Source: Acidobacteriota bacterium
Lineage (GTDB): Bacteria > Acidobacteriota > Holophagae > Holophagales > Holophagaceae
Direction of reading: 5' to 3'
Assembly: GCA_016192145.1 (NCBI GenBank)
Contig: JACPUT010000003.1
Location: 62,001 to 126,000, forward strand
DNA length: 64,000 nucleotides
Shown here: one piece after another, positions 22,548 to 28,597 of the stretch
Layout: every line of letters begins with the position of its first letter
Numbering within the stretch: position 1 is the first letter of the stretch
The notes under the pieces: generated by a model
Databases searched by the model: none
What the model was told of the DNA's origin: nothing
The model's input: only the letters and a program-made list of their open reading frames with translations
Program-made: the position numbers and the translations under genes

Positions 22548-24527
22548 TCAGGGCGCGGGCTTGAAGGCGAGCCCATCCTCCAGGAGTGACTTGACGAGGG
22601 TCCGATCCTTCTTCCACTCCTGGAGCCCCTTGTCGCGCTGGTCGAAGTCGAAGCGCGCCGATTTGAATCGGTGGTCCAAATCCAGCTCCAGGATGGTCCC
22701 CGCCTCACCCGGCCTGGATACGGCCTTCCAAGTGAAGGCCCGGAAGGGCGATTCCGCCGAGCGCTCGGGCAGCAGGGGCGAGACCTTGGAGGGCACCTTC
22801 AGCACCGCGTGGTAGCTCAGCTCGCCGAACCCATCCATGGAAACCGGGTAGCGCCGCGCCACACCGGCCTTCTGGATGAGGGAGAAGGGACCGGGGATGC
22901 ACCAGGAGGCCAGCTCGAACTCGCCCCCATTCCGGCGGAATCCCTCCGGATGGGTCACCTTGAGATCCACTTCGAAGGCCTTGGTCAGATCCAGCGGATC
23001 CCCCAGCCGTGCGACCTCGACCTGGGCCGTGGCCGGGAGATCCAGCCTCCGGGCCATGATCGAATCCCTCACGCCCTTGGTTCCGCCCTGCTGGGCGATG
23101 GCCCGGAGCCCCCAGTAGCTGCCCGTTTCCTGCAACTTGAGGGTGGCCTTCAGCTGGCTTCCCTGCACTTCGCCCTCGAGCCGCACCTGCAGACGATCCA
23201 TGAGGATGGCCTTGTCGGGCACGGTCACCCAAACCGCACCTTCCGGGAGGCAGATCATCAGCTTGCGGCCACGGTGGCCGGAGCCCAAATGGCCCAGGGG
23301 GGTGAGCGGATCCGTGGGATCCACGAGCAGGAAGCGGCCTTTGGGCGTCTCCACTTCCGCCGCCAGGCCCAGGCTGGATTCCAGACGGACGGCGGAAATC
23401 ACATGGTTGAAGACGGGAAAGGGCTCCTGCTGGGGCTCGATCTCACCCGCGACGATGCGGGCCAAGGCGGGCACGGAGGAATACCCCAGTCCCTTGGCTT
23501 CGGCCATGAAGAAGGCCGAGAGATCTTTGCAGTCTCCGTAGCGCTTGCGCCCCACTTCCAACGGCTGTTCGGGCACCCATCCCCGTTCCGGGGTCAGGTA
23601 GACCTGCTTGTAGGTGAGGGAGCGGCCCATCCAGGCCCAAAGCGCCTTCAACCCCTCGAGGCCCTTCCTCCCCTGCAGGTCCGCCATCCCCGGTGGCGTC
23701 ATCGCGGGTACGAAGTGATCCAGGTTCCAACGCGCCATCTCATCCCAGGACCCCCACATGCGTCCGATCGGAAGGGCCGGATCCAGGAACCGGACCATGA
23801 CGACCGGGAGCACATTGAAGAGGTGGGGGTGGCCCCCCTCGTCCCTGGGCAGGGCTGGCACGTCGGTTACCCGGAAGCCGAAGGCCCCGAGTGCTTCGGT
23901 CTTAGTGATCCAGGGCTCGAAGTGCCGGCGATCGAGCTTCACGTCCACGGACTGGAGATTGGTGAACCAGCCCTCCTTCTTGGCGACCTCAAGCTCCCAC
24001 CGCCTCACCGGCACCGATTCCATGGGCGAGACATCGGCGATGGGCCCCAGCGGGCTCTGCACGGATTCAAGGGATTCGAAGGCGACGTAGCTCCCCTTGA
24101 CCACCCGCTCGAGCACGGCCCCGGTGAGGGTGGCCGTGCTGAACTCCGCGTCGGACACGTCGTTCATCGTCACCACGTTGTCGGAATCCAGCTTCACCAG
24201 TTCGTTGTCCGGCCGGAGGTTCCAGCCCTTCACCTTCTTCACCTTGCTGGCCTTGCCTCCCAAGCCATGCAGCACGAACACACCCTGGCCCGTCCCGCGC
24301 TCCGTGAGCACCTTCACCAGGCGGAAGCGCCGCTGGCGGATCTCCCCACTGCCCGTGTAGGCGATCTCGGTTCGATCCAGAAGCACCCATGCATCGGCGT
24401 CCGCGGGCGCCATCGCATCGGCGGGCAGCACCGCCGCCTGGGCGGCCCAATCCGGAAGCTTGGATACATTCTGGGCCGCAAGAAAAGCCTGTGCGGCCAC
24501 CAGGAGGGCCAGTATTTGAGTTCGCAT
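22548..24527 (-). CDS. DUF3857 / transglutaminase-like protein with intact catalytic triad (paralogue 1)
   Basis: 659 residues, signal peptide RTQILALLVAAQAFLAAQ. The N-terminal DUF3857 beta domain (to about 250) is followed by a transglutaminase core with Cys333 in RYGDCKDLSAFFM, His in FNHVISAVRL and Asp in LLVDPTD, so the triad is complete, and by a C-terminal beta domain. Such proteins are secreted in Bacteroidota and Acidobacteriota; their substrate is unknown. Start ATG 24525-24527, with AGGTGGGG or TATAGG-N7 ahead. It shares a 28-bp upstream element with paralogue 3. Confidence 0.85.
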   Translation of the reverse strand: MRTQILALLVAAQAFLAAQNVSKLPDWAAQAAVLPADAMAPADADAWVLLDRTEIAYTGSGEIRQRRFRLVKVLTERGTGQGVFVLHGLGGKASKVKKVKGWNLRPDNELVKLDSDNVVTMNDVSDAEFSTATLTGAVLERVVKGSYVAFESLESVQSPLGPIADVSPMESVPVRRWELEVAKKEGWFTNLQSVDVKLDRRHFEPWITKTEALGAFGFRVTDVPALPRDEGGHPHLFNVLPVVMVRFLDPALPIGRMWGSWDEMARWNLDHFVPAMTPPGMADLQGRKGLEGLKALWAWMGRSLTYKQVYLTPERGWVPEQPLEVGRKRYGDCKDLSAFFMAEAKGLGYSSVPALARIVAGEIEPQQEPFPVFNHVISAVRLESSLGLAAEVETPKGRFLLVDPTDPLTPLGHLGSGHRGRKLMICLPEGAVWVTVPDKAILMDRLQVRLEGEVQGSQLKATLKLQETGSYWGLRAIAQQGGTKGVRDSIMARRLDLPATAQVEVARLGDPLDLTKAFEVDLKVTHPEGFRRNGGEFELASWCIPGPFSLIQKAGVARRYPVSMDGFGELSYHAVLKVPSKVSPLLPERSAESPFRAFTWKAVSRPGEAGTILELDLDHRFKSARFDFDQRDKGLQEWKKDRTLVKSLLEDGLAFKPAP

Positions 24528-24545
24528 TACCCCACCTATATTTTC

Positions 24546-24573
24546 GGGAATCGGATGACACAATTCGGACGAG
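24546..24573 (-). promoter_or_regulatory. 28-bp element upstream of DUF3857 paralogue 1
   Basis: 25 of 28 positions are identical to 28611-28638 ahead of paralogue 3. Read on the minus strand it contains GAATTGTGTCATCC and ends 18 nt before the start codon. TTGTGT-N17-TATAGG could form a -35/-10 pair here. CAATTC and GAATTG form an inverted repeat at its upstream edge. Confidence 0.5.
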
Positions 24574-24588
24574 AATTGCTTGCCCAGG

Positions 24589-26535
24589 TTATTCCTTCGA
24601 GAGCTCAACACTCCGTCGGCATGCATCCTCGATCCAGCCAAGGTATGCCTTGAAGGCTCCCCACTCGATCGCACCCGCAGACATGGCCGACACATCCACC
24701 CGGAGGACGACCTTTCCTTCCCGGGTAGCCGGGTCATAGCTGGGTAGCCAGACCACCCTCCCAAATCCATTCTGCATCTTCAGAGTCTGCTGCTCGCCCA
24801 TGGTCCAGCCACTGGGCACCTTGAAGGTCGAGATCGCGATATGGGTCATGAGAAACGGGAGGATGATGGGACCGGTGCGCTTCGCTTCTAGCTTGGTGGG
24901 CACCTCAAGGGGCCAAGGCATGGAAGGGAATGGATCCACCGTACGCTTTCGCTGGGATTCACGCTCGATCCGTCCCTTGACCTCCCACAGAACGCCCTTG
25001 GTCGAGTCGGTGGCGTTCTGTATCTCGGCTGAATCGATGGTGACGTTCTTCATGGACCTTGTAAGGGAATCCTTGAGCTCCTTGGATTGTTCAGAGGGCT
25101 CCAGTTTCATGAATCGAAGCCGTTCTAAGAATTCCGGGAATCCTCCGAATTCGGTTTTGAGCGTGAATTCATCCTGCTCATCCTGCAGAGTGAGGGCGTA
25201 GGTGAACCGCCGGGAATTCAACCCAGCGCCCAGGGTGGCCACCGTTCCTCTGACGGGCTTCCAGGTGGCGGAATCGATCACAAGCGCCGGCACTCCCGTA
25301 TAGTCGGGATGAACCACCCCCGGGGTGGCGTAGCGGCAGGTGGGGTCGAACCAAGCCGTCCCCCCTTGGGGATCGTCCACGCCGATCAGCCGATGGTTGA
25401 ATTGCCATGGATTGAGGCTGTTCCAGTCGAAAAAGTTGAATTCTCGATCCACCACCATGCCCACCTTGGGGATGATGCCCGCGGATTTCAGCAGGTGGAA
25501 AAATAGCAACCGCATCCCTTCGCCATCGGTCCGGCCAGTTTTGGTTGCCTTGTCGAGATCCTTCGAGTTCAGGTTTTCCAGGAACCCCTTTGAGAGGCTC
25601 ACCATCTCCGCATGAGTGGCCAACGTCAGGTTCTTGATGCGCTTGTCCAATCGGGCCATCAATTCCGCGGCCTTCTTCGAAGGAACCCCTTCGAGGCCGG
25701 TGGTCAGCTCCATCGCCAGGGATTTGAAGGCTGCGCTTTTATCGAGGCCTTCTTCAAAGGCATCCTTGTAGACGGTTTGGCTCGCCGCTTCCCAATAGGC
25801 CTCCGGGCCTTTCCTGGACACCCCGGCCAGATCCTCCGGTTGGTAGAAAATCACCAACGCCGGTGGATTGAAAGTGGGCTGGATGGCATAGGGCGGCAGT
25901 TCCAGCTCCGGAATGTTGCTGAGGGTGAATCGCTTGTAGGTTGAAGCCTCGGTAACCACGGGCGCGATGCCCAGGCCTGGCCGAAGGGAGAACGCCAAGG
26001 GAAAGGACTTCGGCACTTCCACGACCAGGCTTTGGATGGGGTAAGGTTTCGAGAGCACCCACTGGTGGTAGAGCCCGCGCTCATATCGGTTGGGCAGGCC
26101 GGAGAACAGCCCATTGGCCTTCTCGCTCCATCGGAGCTCCATCACGCAATCGGAGGTGATGCCGGGAGCCACGAGATGCCTTTGCCTCTCCTTTCCACGA
26201 CCGACCTTGATGAACCGCTCTCCGAAGTCCTTCTGATCATTGAACTGGACCTGGCGCCCATCCGGGTAGACCGTCCGTCCTTTGAGACCATAGACGGCGG
26301 TGGGAAGGTCTTCCACCTCGGCCGCGGCCTTGCCCGCCTCAGCGTAGATCCTTACCCGGTAAAGGTACTCAATGGAGTACACGTTGAACTTCATCCGGGA
26401 CTCCAAAATCACCGCCCCGGTACTTCCCTCCTTCATGGCCCACACTGCGGGTGGAATGGGTGCGAAATCATCCCCTGCAAAGGCGAGACCGCCCGTCAGG
26501 ACAAAGGTAAAGACGAACAACAAATGCCGGAACAT
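24589..26535 (-). CDS. DUF3857 protein with catalytic Cys replaced by Gly (paralogue 2)
   Basis: 648 residues; signal peptide MFRHLLFVFTFVLTGGLAFA. Same layout as its neighbours. In the transglutaminase core the position of the nucleophile is Gly338 (TDGEGMRLLFF) instead of Cys, while His (QFNHRLIGV) and Asp (WFDPTC) remain. So it should not catalyse the usual thiol chemistry and may bind the substrate or a partner. AGGAG precedes the ATG by 4 nt. About 110 bp separate it from paralogue 3 upstream; codon use looks like its neighbours. Confidence 0.83.
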   Translation of the reverse strand: MFRHLLFVFTFVLTGGLAFAGDDFAPIPPAVWAMKEGSTGAVILESRMKFNVYSIEYLYRVRIYAEAGKAAAEVEDLPTAVYGLKGRTVYPDGRQVQFNDQKDFGERFIKVGRGKERQRHLVAPGITSDCVMELRWSEKANGLFSGLPNRYERGLYHQWVLSKPYPIQSLVVEVPKSFPLAFSLRPGLGIAPVVTEASTYKRFTLSNIPELELPPYAIQPTFNPPALVIFYQPEDLAGVSRKGPEAYWEAASQTVYKDAFEEGLDKSAAFKSLAMELTTGLEGVPSKKAAELMARLDKRIKNLTLATHAEMVSLSKGFLENLNSKDLDKATKTGRTDGEGMRLLFFHLLKSAGIIPKVGMVVDREFNFFDWNSLNPWQFNHRLIGVDDPQGGTAWFDPTCRYATPGVVHPDYTGVPALVIDSATWKPVRGTVATLGAGLNSRRFTYALTLQDEQDEFTLKTEFGGFPEFLERLRFMKLEPSEQSKELKDSLTRSMKNVTIDSAEIQNATDSTKGVLWEVKGRIERESQRKRTVDPFPSMPWPLEVPTKLEAKRTGPIILPFLMTHIAISTFKVPSGWTMGEQQTLKMQNGFGRVVWLPSYDPATREGKVVLRVDVSAMSAGAIEWGAFKAYLGWIEDACRRSVELSKE

Positions 26536-26644
26536 ATGGCTCCTTGATCGGTAGTAGGCGGCACAAATTTGAAGGTTGCAAGCGGGATGGAGGTCCCTAA
26601 TCGGGCGGTCGGGCCCCCATCCGGTCCCATCGCGGTGGAGGAGG

Positions 26645-28597
26645 TCACTCCCCGCGCGAGAGGAGGATCTGCATGCGGCACGCCGATTCGACCCAGCCCA
26701 GGAAAGTCCGGAAGGCCTGCCACTCGGGCGGTGGGGCTGAATAGGCGCCCACCTCGGTCTGGAAGACCACCTTCACCGTCCGATTGGCGGCGTCAACCGT
26801 GGGTGTCCAGGTCACCCGGCCGAAGCCATTCTCATGGCTCACTCCCTGAAGCGTCGGGATCCGGTAGCCCGCCGGAATTTTGAAGGTGCTGACCGCCTCC
26901 TGGACCATGGGGTAGGGAAGGACGATGGGCAGCGCCCGGGTTTCCTCCAGTCGATCGGGAATCCAGAGGGGCCAGGGCATACCCGGGAACGGCTCTACCA
27001 CGCGGCTTCGCCCGCCTTCCCGCTCCAAAGCGCCTTTGAGGGTCCAAGAGAGTCCCATCTGGGCACTGGCGCTGTTGAATACCTCGGCGGAGGCAACCTG
27101 AAGATTCTTCATGGAGCGCTCGTAGTGCTCCTTCAGGGTCTTCGACTGTTCCTTGGGGTCGAGTGCGAGGTACCTGGATCGCTCCACGTTCTCCGGGAAC
27201 CCCGTGAACTCGGCCGAGAGATCATAGGTGTCGGAGGATTCGTCCAGTTCCATGGCATAGGTGTATTTCCGTCGATTGAACCGGGCATCCAGAACGCCCA
27301 CCACGCCGCGCGTGGCCTTCCAGCTGGCGGAGTCGAGGATGAGCGCCGGTACGCCGGTATAGTCCGGGTGCACCACGCCGGGTGTAACGAAACGGCGCGT
27401 GGGCTCGAACCAGACCGTCGCGCCATCCGGGTTGCGCACCCCGATGAGGTCGTTTCCGAATTGCCAAGGGTTCAACTGCCCCCACTCGAAAAGGGCCTGC
27501 TCCCGGTCCACCACCTTGGCCACCAGGGGCTTGATCCCCATTTCCTCGAGCAGGCAATAGAAAAGGAGGCGCATCCCGATCGCGTTGGTACAGCCCTGTT
27601 CTGCCGCCCTGCTCAGATTGACTACGTTGAAGGTCTCCCAAAAGTCTTTGGGAAGGGCGGCGCGCTCCGCGTTGGTCGCGTGGCCCAGGTTGACGATGCG
27701 GGCATCCAACCGGCTGAGCAGTTCCGCCGCGGCCTGGGTGGGGATGGCCGGCAGACCGGTGGTAAGTTCCTTCGCCAAGGCCTTGAACGCTTTTCCCCGG
27801 TCGATCTGCGCGCCGACATAGTCATTCCGGAACAAATTTTTCGCGGCGTCCTGCCAATAGGACTCGGCGCCGCTCCTCGTGGAGATGGATAGGTTCTTGG
27901 GCTGCCAGTACATGATGAGTTTGGGAGCTCGAAGGCTGGCTCGCAGTCCATAAGGGGGGACTTCCAAGGCCTGGACGTTCTTGAAGGCGAACTGTTTCAT
28001 GCCTTTTCCCTCGGTGACCACAGGCGCCGCACCGCTGCCAGGGATGACGGAATAATCGAGGGGGAAATATTTCCCGATTTCCACGGTGAAGGCTTGGGTG
28101 GGATAGGCATTGGCCAGCGTCCATGCGCCGTACCAGCCGTTGTTCATCCGCCGGGGCAACCCTTCGACGGGCCCGTTGGCGGGCTCAGCCCAGCTCAATT
28201 CCACTACGCAATCAGCCGTCACGCCAGGCGCGACCAGGTGAGTCGCCCGGGCTTTCCCGCCCCAGCCATCCACGACCTTTTCCGCGAAATCCTTGCGGCT
28301 GTTGAAGAGCACCACCCTCCCGTCGGGGTAGACCGTCCGGCCTTTGATGTCAATTGCCGTGGGCGGCAGGTCATTGAAGGCGGCGGCATCGCGTCCCCCT
28401 TCCGCGAAGATCCTCGCCCGATAGAGGTACTCGATGAATCCCGACATGAACCGCATCCGCTCTTCGAGCACCACGGCACCTTTCGGGCCTTCCTTGATCG
28501 CCCAGACCGCGGGTGGGATGGGCTCGAAATCACTTGCAAACACGTTGAGAAAACTCATCAAAACGATGGGACAAGCCTGGAGCGAGCGCAGCTTCAT
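26645..28597 (-). CDS. DUF3857 protein with all three triad positions replaced (paralogue 3)
   Basis: 650 residues; start ATG 28595-28597 (MKLRSLQACPIVLMSFL signal peptide) with AAAGG ahead. It aligns along its length with paralogue 2 (shared DFEPIPPAVWAIKEG, WFEPTRR..TPGVVHPDYTGVPAL). At the triad it has Ala339 for Cys (TNAIGMRLL), Asn for His (QFGNDLIGV) and Glu for Asp (WFEPTRR). It is therefore a non-enzymatic descendant. It has the same upstream element as paralogue 1. Confidence 0.83.
   Translation of the reverse strand: MKLRSLQACPIVLMSFLNVFASDFEPIPPAVWAIKEGPKGAVVLEERMRFMSGFIEYLYRARIFAEGGRDAAAFNDLPPTAIDIKGRTVYPDGRVVLFNSRKDFAEKVVDGWGGKARATHLVAPGVTADCVVELSWAEPANGPVEGLPRRMNNGWYGAWTLANAYPTQAFTVEIGKYFPLDYSVIPGSGAAPVVTEGKGMKQFAFKNVQALEVPPYGLRASLRAPKLIMYWQPKNLSISTRSGAESYWQDAAKNLFRNDYVGAQIDRGKAFKALAKELTTGLPAIPTQAAAELLSRLDARIVNLGHATNAERAALPKDFWETFNVVNLSRAAEQGCTNAIGMRLLFYCLLEEMGIKPLVAKVVDREQALFEWGQLNPWQFGNDLIGVRNPDGATVWFEPTRRFVTPGVVHPDYTGVPALILDSASWKATRGVVGVLDARFNRRKYTYAMELDESSDTYDLSAEFTGFPENVERSRYLALDPKEQSKTLKEHYERSMKNLQVASAEVFNSASAQMGLSWTLKGALEREGGRSRVVEPFPGMPWPLWIPDRLEETRALPIVLPYPMVQEAVSTFKIPAGYRIPTLQGVSHENGFGRVTWTPTVDAANRTVKVVFQTEVGAYSAPPPEWQAFRTFLGWVESACRMQILLSRGE

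Follow-up and report, generated by a model that had tools for sequence, protein, structure and literature searches.

The DNA considered here, referred to as the window, is a stretch of 64,000 nucleotides from an Acidobacteriota bacterium (GenBank assembly GCA_016192145.1, contig JACPUT010000003.1, positions 62,001 to 126,000). At positions 22548-28597 it carries three consecutive genes on the minus strand, transcribed in the order P3, P2, P1, and all three open reading frames (ORFs) are intact. P3 (26645..28597, 650 amino acid residues) and P2 (24589..26535, 648 residues) belong to type 2, the exported pseudoenzymes, here also called dead. P1 (22548..24527, 659 residues) belongs to type 1, the active form, and is an exported protein of the transglutaminase fold with an intact Cys/His/Asp triad. 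The intergenic gaps are 109 bp between P3 and P2 and 61 bp between P2 and P1. The three proteins, of about 650 residues each, have a signal-peptide-like stretch at the N-terminus. A lipobox was not seen in any of them, which suggests that they are soluble exported proteins in a two-membrane cell. A sequence-only reading of the window had described three tandem secreted paralogues, numbered in plus-strand order, opposite to transcription. The intact ORFs with signal-peptide-like starts agree with this description, but only P2 and P3 are paralogues, with 51% identity across their full length. Comparison of P1 with P2 and with P3 by BLASTP gave no significant match; on the sequence evidence P1 is a remote homologue of the other two, detectable only by profile comparison.

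The alignment of the family profiles A1 and A2 with hhalign has a probability of 99.4 and an E-value of 5e-21 over 538 columns. It pairs Cys333, His375 and Asp403 of P1 with Gly338, His381 and Asp397 of P2. The corresponding residues of P3 are Ala339, Asn382 and Glu398, so that the residues named in the sequence-only reading are the same as those found here. The codons of the P1 triad lie on the minus strand at 23529..23531 (Cys333), 23403..23405 (His375) and 23319..23321 (Asp403), the last two located from the family alignment. Cys333, the predicted catalytic residue in the fragment RYGDCKD, is invariant in 27/27 rows of the type-1 alignment A1. The codons at the Cys position of the other two genes, also on the minus strand, are 25522..25524 for P2 Gly338, from the profile alignment, and 27581..27583 for P3 Ala339, from the comparison with P2. 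The AlphaFold models cover P1 (predicted local distance difference test 90, predicted template modelling score 0.87) and P2 (91 and 0.87, respectively). In these models Cys333 of P1 and Gly338 of P2 are both located at the start of a helix (residues 333-346 and 338-351). It is important to note that P3 has a Cys residue nearby, Cys336 in the fragment QGCTNAI, which had been named as a possible replacement for the catalytic one. This residue is located three residues upstream of the Cys site at the helix start, and the alignment and the helix position rule it out as a displaced nucleophile. The catalytic transglutaminase-like triad is thus present in P1 and absent from P2 and P3 in the alignment; as judged from alignment and models, the catalytic Cys is gone from P2 and P3 and no other Cys substitutes for it.

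A direct search with the Pfam families DUF3857 (PF12969) and DUF3858 (PF12970) gave no match to P1, P2 or P3, and Transglut_core (PF01841) matches P1 with 18.3 bits, below the cut-off of 23 bits. Among the relatives of type 1, 14 of 27 match Transglut_core and 11 of 27 match DUF3857, while 12 of the 35 relatives of type 2 match DUF3858. The type-2 profile also matches the crystal structure 3KD4 of the Protein Data Bank (PDB) by sequence (E-value 1.9e-7). The earlier assignment of the trio to DUF3857 therefore has no direct Pfam match behind it and holds by way of family members and fold. DUF3857 also occurs in other phyla: a control search gave a match in Caulobacter, and a published paper (PMC6341742) names Xanthomonas. 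Structure 3KD4 is the clear best structural match from end to end for both models, with Z-scores of 22.9 for P1 (residues 42-657) and 17.1 for P2 (residues 37-647) and Foldseek E-values of 4.6e-22 for P1 and 1.2e-25 for P2. The domain order of a beta domain, a transglutaminase-fold core and a second beta domain is seen in the models of P1 and P2, and extends to P3 only through its identity to P2.

The occurrence of active and dead genes was followed in three sets of loci. A survey of the class gave 60 relatives and 28 loci with at least two members; a phylum-wide set comprised 40 further loci, chosen where both profiles match nearby; and a DUF3857 search of 118 genomes of Bacteroidota was read at nearly all matched loci, except for a set of long single ORFs. 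In the class the Cys/His/Asp triad is kept in 31/31 proteins of type 1, and the Cys is lacking in 39/39 of type 2. Dead and active genes stand side by side repeatedly among the 60 relatives, and the type-1 gene always has a dead neighbour, often overlapping it by 1-4 bases. The total is 110 multi-member loci, 68 in the phylum of the window and 42 in Bacteroidota. All 110 hold both active and dead genes, which answers the question, raised from the sequence alone, of whether the two forms occur together in other genomes. Exactly one active gene is accompanied by one to three dead genes at 109 of these loci; the exception (L091:3753-16706, genome G046) has three complete dead-active pairs in a row. 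Each of the 40 further loci of the phylum has one active gene, in the arrangements dead-active (25), active-dead (8), dead-dead-active (3), three dead genes with one active (3) and dead-dead-active-dead (1). The same is true of 42/42 loci in Bacteroidota: 15 dead-active, 15 active-dead, 7 dead-dead-active and 5 active-dead-dead. If shared descent is ignored, random labelling of the genes would produce the pattern seen in Bacteroidota with a probability of about 2e-13. Four doubtful Cys sites of dead members, three with apparent gaps (L182, L187, L191) and one with a misalignment (L198), were realigned; none of them has a Cys. Because the loci are related, the one-active pattern should be read as a deep rule and not as 110 separate events.

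The evolutionary history of the two forms was examined with unrooted trees from which the catalytic columns had been removed. The tree of 146 sequences contains two changes between the active and the dead state, and the mixture-model tree of 64 sequences contains one. A single ancient loss of the Cys is likely but not proven, because the support for a single split of active and dead proteins is only 73. P2 and P3 group together inside the dead clade as fully supported sisters. Seven loci including the window share a chromosomal site with a coaE side and an accA side, and among these loci a second dead gene at the site is found only in the window. An independent duplication of a dead gene is found in another genome (G006). 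These sequence comparisons indicate that the Cys loss is old, while the P2/P3 duplication and the trio are recent. The pairing of active and dead genes is ancient. The sequence-only reading saw in the trio a stepwise loss of the triad, and this idea is ruled out by the census and the trees: the whole dead family lacks the Cys, and P2 and P3 were duplicated recently inside the dead clade. The His and Asp of P2 do not represent a halfway stage, because the column of this His varies freely among the dead proteins (information 1.27 bits).

The distribution of conserved residues differs between the two families. In the core, 31 of 153 positions are strongly conserved in the active family and 5 of 165 in the dead family. 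The corresponding values are 25 of 225 and 21 of 204 for the N domain, and 15 of 219 and 14 of 214 for the C domain. Conservation in the dead family has left the core and has stayed in the N and C domains, which suggests that it is the outer domains of the dead protein that are under selection. The residues at the Cys site of the dead family include S, A, G, P, V, N, Q, R, T, E, D and others. The divergences of the active and dead proteins within the family are closely correlated (Mantel r 0.945, exceeded in 0/2000 permutations). This co-divergence also holds where one genome has several pairs, and the paralogous pairs keep their own partners. The recurrence at 110 loci together with the pairwise co-divergence supports the earlier view of an active enzyme with non-catalytic relatives retained for a function. 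The same evidence makes it probable that the proteins form a joint assembly, as that view had it.

The best explanation, which we consider fairly probable, is an exported thiol amidase, either a peptidase or a transglutaminase, that requires a pseudoenzyme subunit. P1 would be the exported thiol enzyme of transglutaminase fold, its Cys/His/Asp core lying between a DUF3857-type beta domain at the N-terminus and a DUF3858-type beta domain at the C-terminus. Its standing pseudoenzyme partner would be present twice, as P2 and P3, which have the same three-domain build but a dead pocket. The products of the three genes, presumably made together and exported to one compartment, would most likely form a heteromer. 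By means of its beta domains the dead subunit could supply folding or activation of the active one, or could hold or present the substrate; for P2 and P3 the most likely roles are to stabilise P1 or to hold the substrate. The chemistry of P1 would proceed outside the cytoplasm through an acyl-enzyme at Cys333. Peptide or isopeptide cleavage appears more likely than cross-linking, and the nearest core folds (the PeiP isopeptidase, the LapG protease and the transglutaminases) are too close in Z-score to choose among. The second dead copy arose when the partner gene was duplicated locally, and it might widen the choice of substrate. The rule of one active gene with dead ones suggests that the genes should be co-expressed, and deleted in combination.

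Several observations weigh against this explanation. The tie between the active and dead genes is not absolute, because solitary genes of both kinds occur: the dead ones number six in the class and six in Bacteroidota, and 12 solitary active genes are found in the latter phylum. The locus counts overstate the independent evidence because the loci share descent, and the choice of the 40 phylum-wide loci was limited to places where both profiles match nearby. The neighbourhood comparison across loci gave no conserved third gene that would name a pathway, and synteny is local only. The Z-scores for the transglutaminase fold with the core alone are middling (7.6-9.1), the PeiP isopeptidase giving 9.1 and LapG 8.1.

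The solitary dead genes, one of which (L094) is found in the genome of the window, would also agree with dead proteins that do not touch the enzyme and are independent binders of a substrate or ligand, sharing an operon and acting on the same material in the manner of solute-binding proteins. The conservation of the outer domains in the dead family is likewise binder-like. However, every type-1 gene of the class has a dead neighbour, the co-divergence of the pairs is tight and the paralogous pairs within one genome retain their own partners, and we regard independent binding as unlikely. Pseudoenzymes of other enzyme classes are known to hold enzymes silent, and the dead proteins share the fold and the gene cluster of the active one; they might thus be inhibitors or propeptide-like guards which silence P1 until a signal or substrate appears. 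This is quite improbable, as the dead pocket is not conserved and an indispensable guard would rarely be dispensable, whereas 12 active genes in Bacteroidota are solitary.

Two further possibilities concern the pocket itself. The retained fold, and the His and Asp of P2, might suggest that the dead proteins are catalytic by other chemistry, through another residue within the former pocket or close to it; however, no core residue consistently replaces the Cys and the His column is free, which makes such chemistry very improbable. None of the three triad residues is kept in P3, and one of them is replaced in P2, as might be expected of decaying copies with a stepwise loss. It is hardly credible that they are such copies: both proteins are full-length with conserved N and C domains, and the dead state is common to the whole family and predates the P2/P3 duplication. 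The requirement of P1 for a pseudoenzyme subunit is the reading we prefer.

The genome of the window has two related genes outside the trio. The fourth family member is the solitary type-2 dead gene mentioned above (L094:3574-5571, or G000:C13:83585-85564), which has no active neighbour. The second active DUF3857-transglutaminase (L096:2741-5953, on contig C7 of the same genome, G000) has 1071 residues, is fused to tetratricopeptide repeats (TPR) and has no dead neighbour. Three neighbourless active proteins were checked for extra domains; two have TPR repeats and one has DUF2569, the forms from Bacteroidota being L153 (TPR) and L134 (DUF2569). Such domains on solitary active proteins would be in keeping with a requirement for an accessory part. 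Long single ORFs were considered as active-dead fusions, but each of the three tested has an active core joined to TPR repeats or DUF2569 instead of a dead half. In a genome of the same genus (G001) the dead gene L065:3609-5540 has an internal stop while its active neighbour is intact; the genome is a draft and the stop may be an assembly error.

Comparison of repeats located a 21-bp element on the minus strand just before P1 (24546..24566, GAATTGTGTCATCCGATTCCC) and just before P3 (28611..28631, GAATTGTGTCATCCATTTCCC). The form common to both sites is GAATTGTGTCATCC..TTCCC, and a looser form precedes P2. Even when 3 mismatches are allowed, a 20-base form of the element has no other occurrence in the 3.8-Mb genome. 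The element could serve as a control site common to these genes, or it could be a remnant of duplication. Scans for sigma-70 promoters and terminators were at the level of chance, and no structured RNA was found in the window at the gathering threshold. A tblastn search for plasmid-borne copies gave no match for P1 or P2. No PADLOC model of anti-phage defence matches P1, P2 or P3, and a reading as a defence system was rejected. An ORF that we take from its motif to be class I aldolase-like lies near clusters of both phyla (L171, L172, L174, L176, L178, L183, L190, L197, L121, L151), and M16-peptidase-like ORFs are found near some of these loci.

It is important to compare these proteins with known systems. 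In the transglutaminase-like superfamily, which includes factor XIII, LapG and the pseudomurein endoisopeptidase PeiP, the Cys at the start of a helix is followed by His and Asp, as in P1. However, P1 is below the Pfam cut-off, P2 and P3 lack the Cys, and the DUF3857 and DUF3858 domains are extra. The N-terminal beta domain of P1 and P2 resembles the N-terminal domain of M1 aminopeptidases (Z-score about 8), but those enzymes have a zinc peptidase domain which P1 and P2 lack. The likeness is limited to beta domains, as is that to Ost1/ribophorin I, the next Foldseek match after 3KD4. Gene pairs that keep an active and a dead version of the same fold together are known in general, and the trio resembles them in this respect. 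We did not find such a pair described for the DUF3857 family in the open-licence papers of PubMed Central that were searched; in these DUF3857 is mentioned once, in passing, DUF3858 was not found, and 3KD4 appears once, as a fold match, with no reading of it as the pseudoenzyme half of a pair.

The founding structure of DUF3857/DUF3858, 3KD4, is the protein BDI_1141 of Parabacteroides distasonis, named a putative protease. Like P1 and P2 it has the three-domain build over its full length, and like P2 and P3 it lacks the catalytic Cys, with Pro at this site (YGTPLEI). Its Parabacteroides homologue at locus L097 is dead and is located 14 bp behind an active DUF3857-transglutaminase partner. The differences are a sequence identity of 11-15% and the order active-dead, compared with dead-dead-active in the trio. 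We tentatively propose, with somewhat less confidence than the requirement of P1 for a partner, that in two phyla or more the DUF3857 proteins constitute an undescribed class of exported heteromeric thiol enzymes, in which one active transglutaminase-like subunit would be obligately assembled with catalytically dead homologues, from one to three in number, whose part would be to select or present the substrate; 3KD4, the only solved structure found, would then be a dead half. This could turn a widespread bacterial domain of unknown function into a testable system. The name putative protease was given to 3KD4, yet this protein and at least half of the cluster proteins are without the catalytic Cys, and the one-active rule may explain why the crystal structure alone yielded no function.

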